In this document: positions 55,559 through 60,830 of the stretch, one piece after another
Position numbering within the stretch: the stretch's first letter is position 1
Layout of the letters: every line of letters begins with the position of its first letter
Source: an uncultured Eggerthellaceae bacterium
GTDB lineage: Bacteria; Actinomycetota; Coriobacteriia; Coriobacteriales; Eggerthellaceae
NCBI GenBank assembly: GCA_944321455.1
Contig: CALULI010000003.1
Span: 1 to 64,000, forward strand
Direction of reading: 5' to 3'
DNA length: 64,000 nucleotides
Notes under the pieces: generated by a model
What the model saw: the letters and a program-made list of their open reading frames with translations, nothing else
What the model was told of the DNA's origin: nothing
Database searches by the model: none
Translations under genes and position numbers: made by a program

Positions 55559-56948
55559 GCTCCAGGTTGGATCAAAAGTACTATGGTTCGACCCTAACGA
55601 TAAAGATATACACAAAGGCGATTACGTCATTGTTTCTACGGAACGAGGCACCGAATACGGTTGTGCCTCATCCGATATTATGGAGGTCAGCGACGAGCTG
55701 ATCGAACAACTCAAGTCTCCTTTGAAGCCCGTTTTGCGTGTTGCAACGGAAGAGGACAAAGAACAGGCTAAAGTCCTCGCCCAAAAGGGTGCCGAAGCGC
55801 TGCCTATTTTTAAGGAAATGGCGGCGCAGACAAACGAAGACATGCATCCAGTGTTTGTGGAATTTCTCTTCGACGGTGACAAAGCAGTCTTTTATTTTGA
55901 GGCGGAAGATCGCGTTGATTTTCGCGAGTTGGTGCGCAAGTTGGCAGCTCAGTTTGGAGTGCGTGTTGACATGCGCCAAATTGGCGTGCGCGACGGTGCG
56001 CGTATCGTTGGCGGCTTGGGTCATTGCGGTCAAGAGTTATGCTGCAAACGTCTTGGTGGAGAATTTTCTCCCGTGTCTATCAAGATGGCAAAAGAGCAGA
56101 ATCTTTCGCTTAATCCGCAAAAAATTTCTGGCGTATGTGGCCGCTTGATGTGCTGTTTGCGCTATGAGTATGAAACGTATAAGGAATTCAATGCGAAAGC
56201 GCCAAAGCTCAATGCGAAAATTGCAGTTCCTGAAGGCGTTGCTAAGGCAACGGAAATCAACATGCCGCTTGAGCGCATAACCTTGCAGCTTGAAGACGGC
56301 CGCTCCATCAAGGTTCCCCTTGCAGAAATGGAAACGCTAGAAGAAGGTAAGCGCCCCAACGCTATCTCTGAAGAAGTGTTTGATCGCTACGCCAATACCG
56401 ACAAATATGCGGTAACGGAAAGCGTAGCTGCAGCTGATGTTGCCACCTTTACGGCAGAAGATAAGCTGGCTGATCCTTCGAAGAAACCTGACACGCGTAC
56501 GGCTGAACAGCGTCACGAAGAAAGCGCCAAGCAGCATTCGTCCCGTCGTTCACGCAGGCGCAAAAACACCTCTTCTGATGCAGCGCAAGAAAGCCGTTCG
56601 CAAAATGGCACCAAATCAAACAAGAAAAATCAGCGCAGTAAAACCGATGCGTCTTCGGGCAGCCGTTCCCGCTCTCAGGCTTCTACTCGGAGCGAACAGC
56701 GCAAGCCGCGCAAGCGCACGCGCATCAGTGGACCTTCTGAAGGTACGAGCGCTCAGAAAGATACCGCAAAGCAGCAGAGTAGTGCACGCTCAGCACGTCG
56801 CCCTGGCCAAAAATCAAGTGGCCTTCGCAATCCTGCGCCACGCAGTGGCTCAGCGAATCGTCAACAGTCATCATCTCGCGATGGTGTAGCACATCGTAAA
56901 TCGAGACAGCGTCGTCATCATGCGGGAGGGAGTTCTCATGAAAACTGA
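55536..56948 (+). CDS. ricT: PSP1 domain protein RicT (YaaT)
   Basis: A 470-residue protein. Residues 1-270 hold the PSP1 domain with a cysteine cluster: LGHCGQELCCKRLGG and VCGRLMCCLRYEYE, which in Bacillus RicT bind an Fe-S cluster in the RicAFT complex that steers RNase Y. The C-terminal 170 residues are a Ser/Arg/Lys-rich disordered tail, absent from Bacillus RicT. ATG 55536 has GTGAGG upstream. The holB-ricT order is widely conserved. The tail may bind RNA (inference). Confidence 0.9.
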   Translation: MVRVAPIKLQVGSKVLWFDPNDKDIHKGDYVIVSTERGTEYGCASSDIMEVSDELIEQLKSPLKPVLRVATEEDKEQAKVLAQKGAEALPIFKEMAAQTNEDMHPVFVEFLFDGDKAVFYFEAEDRVDFRELVRKLAAQFGVRVDMRQIGVRDGARIVGGLGHCGQELCCKRLGGEFSPVSIKMAKEQNLSLNPQKISGVCGRLMCCLRYEYETYKEFNAKAPKLNAKIAVPEGVAKATEINMPLERITLQLEDGRSIKVPLAEMETLEEGKRPNAISEEVFDRYANTDKYAVTESVAAADVATFTAEDKLADPSKKPDTRTAEQRHEESAKQHSSRRSRRRKNTSSDAAQESRSQNGTKSNKKNQRSKTDASSGSRSRSQASTRSEQRKPRKRTRISGPSEGTSAQKDTAKQQSSARSARRPGQKSSGLRNPAPRSGSANRQQSSSRDGVAHRKSRQRRHHAGGSSHEN

Positions 56949-58392
56949 TGATTATGCGCTTCTGACCGACCTCTATCAGCTCACGATGGCTCAAGGCTAT
57001 TGGGAGTGCGACAAGCTTAATGAGCAGGCTTGCTTCTACATGTTCTTCCGCGAAAACCCGTTTCATGGCGGATATGCGGTTGCGTGTGGCATGGCTCATC
57101 TTGCCGAAATTCTTGAAAAGCTAACCTTTACCGAAGAGGATATTGCTTACTTGGCAAGTCTTGAAGCTCCTGGTGGCGGCAAGCTTTTTAATCCTGGTTT
57201 TCTTGACTACCTGCTCAACATGAAATTTGATGTTGATGTTATGGCAGTGCGCGAAGGAACGGTTGTTTTCCCTAACGACCCGCTTGTTCGTGTTACGGGG
57301 TCTATCCTGCAGTGTCAGCTATTAGAAACGGCGCTGCTTAACTGCGTGAACTTTGAAACGTTGGTAGCCACGAAGGCTGCTCGTGTTTGCAGGGAAGCAG
57401 GATCGCCTGTTGCCGAATTCGGTCTTCGCCGTGCTCAGGGTGAAGCGGGCGGCATCTATGCTTCACGCGCTTCCATTGTGGGCGGCTGTGCTTCAACATC
57501 TAACGTGCTTGCGGGCAGGCTGTTTAACATTCCTGTTTCGGGTACGCACGCTCATTCCTGGGTTATGTCATTTGAAACAGAGCTGGAGGCGTTTCGCGCT
57601 TATGCACGCATCATGCCTAAGAACTGCGTGCTGCTTGTTGATACCTATGACATTACGCAAGGTCTCAAAAACGCCATCACCGTTGGTCTTGAAATGAAAG
57701 AGCGCGGCGAACACTTAAGCGCTATTCGCATTGATTCAGGTGACTTGGCATGGCATGCAAAACAGGCACGCTACATGCTTGATAAAGCAGGACTCACTGA
57801 TACGGGCATTGTTTTGTCTAACGATCTTGACGAATACACCATCAAGTCTATTCGCGATGCGGGTGCTCCTGTTACCTCTTGGGGTGTTGGCACCAAGTTG
57901 GCAACGGCGTATGACCAGCCTGCATTGGGCGGCGTTTACAAGCTTGCCGCTAAAAAGACAGGCGATGGCCCTTGGGAAGACTGCCTGAAGGTTTCAGGCC
58001 AGTCAACGAAGTTGACGGTTCCTGGTGTTCTTGATGTTCGTCGTTACTATCACGATTCGGGCAAGATTGCTGGGGATATGGTATTTGATATCAACACGGG
58101 CGTGCAATCAGAGCGCATTGTTGATCCTGCGGACGAACTACGTCAGAAGAACTTGGCGGGCAAGCGTTTTGTGACCTTGCTTGAGCCTTTGTGCATCAAG
58201 GGCAAGGTTGTACTGTCTGAAGAGCATCGCGATGCGCTGGTTGCGCAGAAGCGTTGCCGCGAACAGCTTAAAACGCTTGATGAAAGCCAAAAGCGTATGC
58301 TTAATCCTCATTCGTATCCTGTTGGCTTGGAGCAAACGCTCTTTAACCGCCGCCATGATTTAGTATCCCGCTTGTTGGGTCTTAACGATTAA
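56938..58392 (+). CDS. pncB: Nicotinate phosphoribosyltransferase
   Basis: A 484-residue enzyme making nicotinate mononucleotide in NAD salvage. It starts with LLTDLYQLTMAQGYW, and has FRENPFHGGYAV, EFGLRRAQG, GGCASTSNVLAG, GTHAHSWVMSFE, LLVDTYDI, RIDSGDLAWHA and VSNDLDEY-like VLSNDLDEYTI. This matches the pncB type 2 family. ATG 56938 is preceded by GGGAGGGAG and overlaps the ricT stop by 11 bases. A strong terminator follows, closing the tmk operon. Confidence 0.94.
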   Translation: MKTDDYALLTDLYQLTMAQGYWECDKLNEQACFYMFFRENPFHGGYAVACGMAHLAEILEKLTFTEEDIAYLASLEAPGGGKLFNPGFLDYLLNMKFDVDVMAVREGTVVFPNDPLVRVTGSILQCQLLETALLNCVNFETLVATKAARVCREAGSPVAEFGLRRAQGEAGGIYASRASIVGGCASTSNVLAGRLFNIPVSGTHAHSWVMSFETELEAFRAYARIMPKNCVLLVDTYDITQGLKNAITVGLEMKERGEHLSAIRIDSGDLAWHAKQARYMLDKAGLTDTGIVLSNDLDEYTIKSIRDAGAPVTSWGVGTKLATAYDQPALGGVYKLAAKKTGDGPWEDCLKVSGQSTKLTVPGVLDVRRYYHDSGKIAGDMVFDINTGVQSERIVDPADELRQKNLAGKRFVTLLEPLCIKGKVVLSEEHRDALVAQKRCREQLKTLDESQKRMLNPHSYPVGLEQTLFNRRHDLVSRLLGLND

Positions 58393-58397
58393 CCGCC

Positions 58398-58440
58398 AAA
58401 AGCAAGGGGTGTTTCGTTGAAGCATCCCTTGCTTTTGTTA
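58398..58440 (+). terminator. Intrinsic terminator after pncB
   Basis: AAAAGCAAGGG (58398-58408) pairs with CCCTTGCTTTT (58426-58436), 11 perfect pairs, with further partial pairing inside; TTTTGTTA completes the T run. It ends the tmk-holB-ricT-pncB transcript. Confidence 0.9.
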
Positions 58441-58522: not shown

Positions 58523-59557
58523 ATGTCCAAACAACAAGAGACCTTTGTTTTTATTGGTGATACCGAAGTGGGCAGCGTGCTTAGCGACCGCCTAGCGCTT
58601 GCAGGTTATGCAGCAGCCTTCGATCTTGATCAGGCCGACATCGTATTTACCTATAGTCCCGTTGTTTCCAAGCTGGAAGATCTCTATTTCGAAACCAACG
58701 GCATCATGGAGAAAAGCAAAAGCGGCGCGATCTATGTTGACTTAAGTCCTGCAACGCCTGCGTTTGCTCGTGAGTTGTATGCGCTTGCTCGCGTTAATGA
58801 ACGCTTTGCCCTTGATGCGCCTCTTGTTGTCCATGACATGGTTGATGAAGAGGCGTTTTCCCGCCCTGAAAACCTCACCTGCCTTGTTGGTGGTGACGAA
58901 GACGATTTCAAGCGCGTTGAAGCTCTACTTAACACCCTTGCCCAAAACGTTGTCTTTTTGGGTGGGGCAGGAGCAGGTCAGAGCGCAAAGACGGCTGCAA
59001 CATTGCAGACCGCCGCTTCGTTAATTGCAGCGGTTGAAGCGCGCACTGCGCTTTCATTAAGCGAAACACCGGTCAACGAAACAGACGTATTTGACCTGCT
59101 GACAAAAACGGGTTTAGTGGCTCCTTCGCTTGCCCGTGTTGTTGAAGCAATGCAACATGAATCATTCAAGGGTTCCTTTACCGTTGGTCTGTTGTTAGGT
59201 GAGGTTGCGGCTGCTCTTGAAGCGGTCGATGATCATGATCTTATCTTGCCTCAGGCAGAGGCAGGGTTTCGCTTGATTGAGCTTTTGGCTTTTGTTGGAG
59301 GGGTTGATTACAATCCTGCAGCAATGACGCTTGCCTTTACCGATGACGAAACGTGCAAGCGTTTCAATCTTGATTGGAATCGTGCGGAGGGCTTGTATGA
59401 GCACGATCATGACCATGATCACGATCACGAGCATGACCACAGCCACGGTCACAGCCATGATCATGCAAGCGACTTCGATGATGATTATAACTACGATGAT
59501 GGCTACGAATCGTACGAAGATTATGACTTTGATGACGACCGTGACAGGGACTACTAG
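58523..59557 (+). CDS. 6PGDH/HIBADH-like protein with His-rich tail
   Basis: A 344-residue protein. Residues 1-275 resemble 3-hydroxyisobutyrate dehydrogenases: a Rossmann-like start, DLSPATPAFA, LDAPLVVHDM, CLVGGDEDDF and GAGAGQSAKTAATL, the last near the catalytic Lys region. The dinucleotide motif is degenerate (FIGDTEVGSV in place of GxGxxG). Residues 293-314 are alternating His and Asp (HDHDHDHEHDHSHGHSHDH), followed by an acidic Asp/Tyr tail. The His stretch should bind nickel or zinc. It overlaps the radical SAM gene, so the products may act together. Substrate and activity are unknown. Confidence 0.8.
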   Translation: MSKQQETFVFIGDTEVGSVLSDRLALAGYAAAFDLDQADIVFTYSPVVSKLEDLYFETNGIMEKSKSGAIYVDLSPATPAFARELYALARVNERFALDAPLVVHDMVDEEAFSRPENLTCLVGGDEDDFKRVEALLNTLAQNVVFLGGAGAGQSAKTAATLQTAASLIAAVEARTALSLSETPVNETDVFDLLTKTGLVAPSLARVVEAMQHESFKGSFTVGLLLGEVAAALEAVDDHDLILPQAEAGFRLIELLAFVGGVDYNPAAMTLAFTDDETCKRFNLDWNRAEGLYEHDHDHDHDHEHDHSHGHSHDHASDFDDDYNYDDGYESYEDYDFDDDRDRDY

Positions 59558-60545
59558 TGCAGATGATGCACCTGTTTGTGTCCCGCATGTGCAGAACACC
59601 GATATTATTGGTGAATTTGATATGAATGCGCTCTACGCATCGTGTCATCTGTGTTCTCGTCATTGTGGCGTCAACCGACTTGAAGGAAAAACGGGCATTT
59701 GCGGTGCTACGGCAACCTTGAAGTTGGGAAGAGCGGCGCTTCATTGGTGGGAAGAGCCGTGTCTTGTGGGGGATAGCGGCAGTGGCGCTGTCTTCTTTTC
59801 GTTCTGTTCGCTTCACTGCTTGTATTGTCAAAACTATGAGCTTTCTCATGGAGCGGGCGCGGAAATCACCCCTGAGCGTTTGAGCGAGATCTTTCTTGAG
59901 CTGCAAAATGATCAGCATGCTGCCAATATCAATTTGGTAACCCCTGGTCATTACCTTCCTTCAATTGTTGTGGCGCTCAATCGCGCGAAGCAAGCAGGGC
60001 TTCATATCCCTGTGGTCTACAACACGTCGGGATATGAATCGGTAGAGGCGCTGCGTCTGTTGGATGGTTTGGTGGATGTGTATTTGACCGACTATAAATA
60101 CGCTGATCCGCAGCTGGCACACGATCTTTCCCAGGCACGCGACTACCCCGAGCGCGCTTTAGAAGCTCTCGAAGAAATGGATAGGCAAATTAAGGGAGAG
60201 TTTGTGCTTGACGATCAAGGATTGCTTCAGCGGGGCATTATTGTTCGCCACTTGATTCTTCCTCATCATCTTCAGGCTTCAAAACAAGCGCTTCGGCTTA
60301 TTCATGAGCGCTTTGGCTCCCGCGTGCGCTTGAGCATCATGAATCAATTTACGCCGCTTGCGCATGATAAACGACTTGATGCGTTAGGGCTTAACGACAC
60401 GGTGAGCAGCCAAGACTACGAAGAAGTGCTCTGCTTTGCCGATGATTTGGGGATTGAAGATTATTTTTGGCAAGAAGAAGCAGCGTGCCAAGAAAGCTTT
60501 ATTCCTGCATTTGATGGTACAGGTGTTGTTTCTTCAGCGAATTGA
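59532..60545 (+). CDS. Radical SAM protein, PflX (COG1313) type
   Basis: A 337-residue iron-sulfur protein related to pyruvate formate-lyase activases. The SAM cluster motif CX3CX2C is CSLHCLYC; before it lies CHLCSRHCGVNRLEGKTGICG, an extra four-cysteine site. VTPGHYLP, YNTSGYES and DVYLTDYKYADP are family blocks. The start is uncertain: ATG 59532 (GAAGA 11 bases before) or GTG 59541; the frame is open for 200 bases upstream but that stretch is a shadow of the His-rich gene. It overlaps the His-rich gene by 26 bases. No glycyl radical enzyme is nearby, so the target is unknown. Confidence 0.85.
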   Translation: MTTVTGTTSADDAPVCVPHVQNTDIIGEFDMNALYASCHLCSRHCGVNRLEGKTGICGATATLKLGRAALHWWEEPCLVGDSGSGAVFFSFCSLHCLYCQNYELSHGAGAEITPERLSEIFLELQNDQHAANINLVTPGHYLPSIVVALNRAKQAGLHIPVVYNTSGYESVEALRLLDGLVDVYLTDYKYADPQLAHDLSQARDYPERALEALEEMDRQIKGEFVLDDQGLLQRGIIVRHLILPHHLQASKQALRLIHERFGSRVRLSIMNQFTPLAHDKRLDALGLNDTVSSQDYEEVLCFADDLGIEDYFWQEEAACQESFIPAFDGTGVVSSAN

Positions 60546-60708: not shown

Positions 60709-60783
60709 GCCAGTGTGGCGCAACGGTAGCGCAACTGATTTGTAATCAGTGGGTTGCAGGTTCGATTCCTGTCACTGGCTCCA
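60709..60783 (+). tRNA. tRNA-Thr (anticodon TGT)
   Basis: A complete cloverleaf of 75 bases: acceptor GCCAGTG/CACTGGC, D arm GGCGCAACGGTAGCGC, anticodon stem ACTGA/TCAGT with loop TTTGTAA (anticodon TGT at 60741-60743, reading ACA), T arm CAGGTTCGATTCCTG and an encoded 3' CCA. It has its own promoter and terminator. Confidence 0.97.
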
Positions 60784-60790
60784 GACAAAA

Positions 60791-60830
60791 ATCAGGCCAT
60801 CGGAATTGTTCCGATGGCCTGTTTGATTTC
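60791..60830. terminator. Bidirectional terminator after tRNA-Thr
   Basis: CAGGCCATCGGAA (60793-60805) and TTCCGATGGCCTG (60809-60821) form 13 perfect pairs. TTTGATTT follows on the plus strand and ATTTTTGTC on the minus strand, so it can end both the tRNA transcript and the convergent ahcY-cupin transcript. Confidence 0.85.

Follow-up and report, generated by a model that had tools for sequence, protein, structure and literature searches.

An apparently dead, conserved dehydrogenase-fold protein with a histidine-rich C-terminal tail in the Eggerthellaceae

Results

Two adjacent genes and their surroundings

The window, a 64,000-nucleotide stretch at the start of a contig from an uncultured Eggerthellaceae bacterium, carries two adjacent genes on its forward strand. 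The first (58523..59557, +) encodes a protein of 344 residues, here called DH, which its sequence and Pfam, AlphaFold2 and PDB matches mark as a putative pseudo-dehydrogenase of 3-hydroxyisobutyrate dehydrogenase (HIBADH) fold with a disordered C-terminal tail. The second (59622..60545, +), assigned by Pfam and a structural model, encodes a radical SAM protein of 307 residues when read from its ATG. An alternative GTG start at 59541 would make the genes overlap, as the first-pass annotation had claimed; because matches to relatives mostly begin at residues 26-34 of the GTG reading, that is, at about ATG 59622, this ATG is the likelier start, and it leaves a 64-bp gap after DH. The upstream neighbour, conserved in 99/105 DH loci of the family, is a nicotinate phosphoribosyltransferase-like gene (56920..58392, +), which we take from its sequence to be pncB. 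A hairpin with a T-rich end (58397..58437, +; -29 kcal/mol, z -6.4), likely a terminator, separates it from the pair. On the other side, the space before a cupin-like and adenosylhomocysteinase-like gene of opposite orientation holds tRNA-Thr(TGT) and, after it, a strong hairpin terminator that works both ways (60709-60821).

Both cysteine sites first attributed to the second protein were recovered. Numbered from ATG 59622, they are C8-x2-C11-x3-C15..C27 (59643..59702, +) and the CxxxCxxC radical SAM motif C62/C66/C69 (59805..59828, +), and each is conserved among homologues (alignments of 108 and of 53 sequences). The model is confident (pLDDT 91.9) and, like the motif, places the protein in the radical SAM superfamily; Radical_SAM alone scored above its Pfam cut-off. 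Although the nearest PDB match, PFL-activating enzyme (3cb8, E 1.5e-9, 16% identity), shares the fold and the CxxxCxxC motif, the window protein has the extra N-terminal four-cysteine site, no glycyl radical enzyme adjoins it, and the NCBIfam models of glycyl radical activases gave at most 24.4 bits against cut-offs of at least 131, nor did any other NCBIfam model score above its threshold. The search for a glycyl radical target in the window's genome returned a single, weak Gly_radical match of 26 bits; the ORF concerned resembles an anaerobic ribonucleotide reductase. PflX, the name first applied, corresponds to COG1313; the Pfam and NCBIfam results contained no PflX family model, and our literature search found no paper on PflX with radical SAM, nor on COG1313.

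The pairing of the two genes is a family-level arrangement

A DH match was found in 106/138 genomes of the window's family, which includes Eggerthella sinensis, Gordonibacter and Adlercreutzia (one of the genomes, G115, gave a weak partial match only), and a radical SAM match in 128/138; order-wide, the figures were 250/297 and 226/247 genomes, respectively. Based on neighbour counts made with named reference proteins, the radical SAM gene lies within the fetched stretch at 97/105 family DH loci, and at 95/105 it starts between -200 and +600 bases from the DH stop. A DegV-family gene lies upstream at 100/105 of these loci; the window belongs to the small remainder that lack it at this place, and its genome has three DegV genes elsewhere. 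Among 20 loci fetched from sister families of the order, DegV lies upstream of DH in 19 and a radical SAM gene near DH in none. Judged by gene order, DegV is the order-wide neighbour of DH.

In G166, G222 and G259, for instance, the genes stand far apart on one contig. Within the family, the 12 genomes of genus g41 (G098-G109) all have the radical SAM gene and no DH match. In 16 loci picked for a radical SAM match without a DH match (L134-L149), a profile search at E 1 recovered no DH. In ten of these, namely all six g41 loci together with L140, L141, L147 and L148, the gene immediately before radical SAM is DegV, so that the cluster lacks its middle member, DH. The six g41 loci (L135-L138, L143 and L144), with DH apparently lost between DegV and radical SAM, constitute a natural knock-out series. 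As a separate observation, a second conserved pair (clusters c4 and c5, about 500 and 340 residues) often follows the radical SAM gene in loci L031-L133; it is reminiscent of the pairing of a radical SAM protein with a uracil-DNA-glycosylase-like one. Because of the separation in sister families and the DH-less loci, the pair is, on comparative gene order, a family-level arrangement with independent losses and not an obligate system. The coupling first proposed for these genes does not survive this separation in relatives, an outcome that the first-pass annotation had itself named as refuting it; the radical SAM gene is both widespread in the order and retained where DH is gone.

A HIBADH fold with degraded cofactor and catalytic features

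Window DH scored above the Pfam cut-off for NAD_binding_2, and HIBADH-type NCBIfam models matched it with scores far under their cut-offs. Its AlphaFold2 model (59 aligned sequences; mean pLDDT 88.9) has the Rossmann and helical C-terminal domains of the HIBADH fold, while residues 309-344 fall below 50. The whole fold and two-domain architecture match those of HIBADH family members 3pef, 1vpd and 5je8 (Z 28.6-29.9), the best being 3pef (Z 29.9, rmsd 1.9, 263 residues), and the NPAC structure 2uyy matches as well (Z 28.9). Unlike these HIBADHs, window DH lacks the GxGxxG motif, the SGG substrate loop, the catalytic Asn and 24 residues of the Rossmann domain, and it adds a disordered tail.

These losses are shared by the family. 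We compared full-length sequences in 100 Eggerthellaceae rows, 51 rows from other families of the order (46 genomes) and 18 rows from other orders of the class, the last group being the closest HIBADHs recovered there and not necessarily strict orthologues; five damaged or partial Eggerthellaceae rows (L069, L103, L131, L132 and L133) were left out. The degraded dinucleotide motif that had been noted in the window is GDTEVG at residues 12-17 (58556..58573, +), in place of GxGxxG, which is kept in 4/100 Eggerthellaceae rows versus 48/51 in the rest of the order and 18/18 outside it. The stretch from the first helix to the AD(V/I) strand, residues 29-37 of the window protein (58607..58633, +), has 9 residues in 98/100 Eggerthellaceae, the window included, and 8 in the other two, versus 33 in 48/51 order rows outside the family and 18/18 outside the order; the cofactor half of the Rossmann domain is thus shortened by 24 residues in 98 rows and by 25 in two. 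The SGG loop is lost in Eggerthellaceae DHs, window included, and Asn is not among the commonest family residues at the catalytic Asn position, which retains it in 49/51 order rows and 18/18 rows outside the order. Overall, these features are intact in 48-50/51 rows from the rest of the order and 17-18/18 from outside it. The window retains Lys156 (58988..58990, +) at the catalytic Lys position, where Eggerthellaceae have Lys in 33/100 and Arg in 59/100, and other rows have Lys in 50/51 (order) and 18/18 (outside). The window protein therefore lacks what a working HIBADH needs on both counts: GxGxxG with a complete cofactor half, and the SGG loop with Lys and Asn, of which it has the Lys. These alignments suggest that the Eggerthellaceae core is a pseudoenzyme, its cofactor pocket apparently lost.

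Eggerthellaceae DHs form one clade in a quick tree (SH-aLRT 99), in which the window and L044 were flagged as long branches. By the Nei-Gojobori method, with gaps left out, 13 close pairs gave core dN/dS values of 0.03-0.32; a tail value was computable for 10 pairs, with a range of 0-0.27. By these estimates core and tail are under purifying selection in the Eggerthellaceae, and the DH, as read from its sequences, is a conserved dead enzyme and not a decaying gene.

A His/Cys-rich tail found across the order

The tail of the window protein begins with a His-rich segment (residues 293-314; 59399..59464, +) that has 11 His in 22 residues, one at every second position, followed by 30 Asp/Tyr-rich residues of predicted disorder (residues 315-344; 59465..59554, +). 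The first-pass annotation had seen both the segment of about 22 residues and the acidic end; its description of alternating His and Asp holds for the spacing of His and in part for the partners, which are six Asp, two Glu, two Ser and one Gly. Eleven His in a 59-residue tail are improbable by chance (binomial p = 6e-8 against an assumed background of 2.2%). In the whole 1.55 Mb genome, the codon pattern HxHxHxHxH had seven overlapping matches within the DH gene and three elsewhere, one of which was inspected and is antisense to an FtsH-like ORF; a reversed control had none. Like SlyD, the window protein ends in a C-terminus of predicted disorder, in this case rich in His and devoid of Cys.

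Tails of sister families are nearly pure His/Cys/Asp/Glu/Gly and have at least four His in 18/20 loci, often in HECCGGHHHH or CGCGHDH repeats. Among the best 30 sister-family loci of a class search, which have five genomes in common with the 20 fetched loci, 29 have HECCGGHHHH-type or CxCGHDH tails, and all 30 have DegV; L269, one of the 30, has an unreadable C-terminus that runs into a downstream frame. In 100 Eggerthellaceae tails, at least four His were found in 42 and neither His nor Cys in 15; L069, L103 and L131 were left out of these counts, and L150 and L120, whose tail boundary could not be read, finish in acidic tails on visual inspection. HECCG motifs occur in 6/20 sister tails and in 5/100 Eggerthellaceae tails, including two from the window's genus. 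Within the Eggerthellaceae, then, the character of the tail has shifted, as judged by composition.

None of the 18 loci from other orders of the class has a HIBADH with a tail, and the only DegV match in these loci was one weak one (L291). Given this and the order-wide tails, the simplest account, as far as sequence comparison goes, is that the DH tail originated beside DegV, either at the base of the order or inside it. In a sister family (f4, genus g80), the nearest dehydrogenase of locus L292, counted among the order rows and not among the 18, has no tail, reflecting either secondary loss or a different paralogue; L293 is a 100-base placeholder stretch.

That the DH tail handles metal is plausible, the more so as SlyD-like tails occur throughout the order. 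The nickel or zinc function first suggested stands to this extent, and is limited by the 15 family tails devoid of both His and Cys, which show that the role in the family must go beyond metal. These same tails partly bear out the other refutation that the first-pass annotation had set for its proposal, loss of the tail in close strains without effect.

Discussion

We propose that the first gene encodes a catalytically dead protein of beta-hydroxyacid-dehydrogenase fold, whose folded and probably oligomeric core would display a disordered C-terminal tail that may bind transition metal ions (Zn, Ni or Co) and either buffer them or hand them on, with the radical SAM gene as a conserved neighbour in Eggerthellaceae and not an obligate partner. 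We regard this as the best reading, with roughly even chances of being correct. The sequences show its foundations: the fold, a family-wide absence of what cofactor binding and catalysis require, a tail predicted to be disordered, purifying selection and, across the order, His/Cys tails where the dehydrogenase is still intact; metal binding, oligomeric display and a client are inferred from these. Against this reading, genus g41 dispenses with the gene altogether, and fewer than half of the family tails reach four His. The conserved neighbours recognised around DH include DegV but neither a metal transporter nor a metalloenzyme. In the window's own genome (C9), L243:14043-14939 encodes a possible metal exporter, putatively a membrane permease, with a loop rich in His and Cys (HHKHLHIHDLCEHDHCDCED).

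The rival that survives best, although we consider it unlikely, is that the tail serves chiefly as a disordered, acidic linker to a terminal docking peptide, much like the tip at the C-terminus of SSB, with His and Cys secondary and the dead core serving as a partner hub. Eggerthellaceae tails are acidic (Asp+Glu median 31%, minimum 19%), are under purifying selection, and end in Asn in 89/100 and in a [YF]SxN tip in 71/100. The tip also ends 4/20 sister-family tails; however, it is absent from the other 16 and from the window protein, and the sister-family composition and the 11 alternating His of the window protein also speak against this rival. The tip was also considered as a glycyl radical peptide, by the likeness of GYSxN to a glycyl loop, and this was rejected, as Gly precedes Tyr/Phe in only 39/100 tails and the window has no tip.

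It is quite improbable that the tail acts as a nickel donor for [NiFe] hydrogenase maturation, in substitution for SlyD. HypA is present in 134/137 family genomes, the window's included, where it adjoins a HypB-like GTPase of 216 residues (L243:8656-9306, C9) with Tat-like genes nearby. This GTPase lacks the His-rich or CxxCGC N-terminus that HypB has in other species, and SlyD-like motifs occur in DH tails. However, HypA is absent from 11 genomes (G149, G157, G174, G181, G184, G190, G214, G217, G229, G237 and G238), all of which have DH tails that read as His/Cys-rich, so that a hydrogenase role cannot explain the tail in general; conversely, g41 keeps HypA and has no DH. Candidates for the proposed nickel target do exist in the window's genome.

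Similarly doubtful, and in our estimate a long shot, is the idea that DH remains catalytically active and has switched cofactor or substrate. Its strong conservation would fit, and retention of Lys or Arg at the catalytic Lys position in 92/100 sequences means that some ligand site may persist, but the shortened cofactor half and the loss of GxGxxG and SGG speak against it. A metal-dependent or metallochaperone-linked pair of DH and radical SAM protein, to which their close spacing at most family loci lends some appeal, is strongly disfavoured by their separation in every fetched sister-family locus, by the ten loci with DegV directly before a radical SAM gene and no DH, and by the near-universal occurrence of the latter in the order.

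Returning to the dead dehydrogenase-fold scaffold with a metal-handling tail, a more elaborate evolutionary version, which we put forward tentatively and rate as possible although on balance doubtful, is that a SlyD-like tail was grafted onto a dehydrogenase beside DegV, creating a metal handler specific to the Coriobacteriales, and that in the Eggerthellaceae catalysis was later lost and the protein retained solely as an oligomeric scaffold, its several tails carrying metal or docking partners, which would make it a 'pseudo-dehydrogenase metallochaperone'. Each half of such a protein has a precedent. The tail of SlyD has CCGGH motifs, as do sister-family tails, and in its disordered C-terminal His/Cys/Asp/Gly character the DH tail also resembles Hpn-like proteins and the UreE tail. 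Unlike SlyD, window DH has no FKBP prolyl isomerase domain (its core is the HIBADH fold, and Pfam returned no FKBP match), its tail has no Cys, and no link to hydrogenase genes was seen. The SlyD tail matters for hydrogenase maturation and that of UreE is dispensable (PMC7055735), so a His tail alone is no proof of a role. For the core, NPAC/GLYR1 contains a HIBADH-type domain that has lost the catalytic Lys and works as a tetrameric scaffold (PMC13144531). Unlike DH, NPAC/GLYR1 is eukaryotic, still binds NAD(P)H through its Rossmann fold, carries its extra parts at the N-terminus and has no metal tail. A search of open-licence papers brought up no description of a tail like this from these bacteria, and as far as this limited search shows, the scaffold principle of NPAC/GLYR1 combined with a metal tail is undescribed.

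The relatives of this protein fall into an ordered series, from no tail outside the order, through a metal-type tail on an intact dehydrogenase in the sister families, to an apparently dead core under selection in the Eggerthellaceae, which are common gut bacteria. This series offers a way to test by what route an enzyme turns into a scaffold, and whether its retention can be explained by a metal tail.
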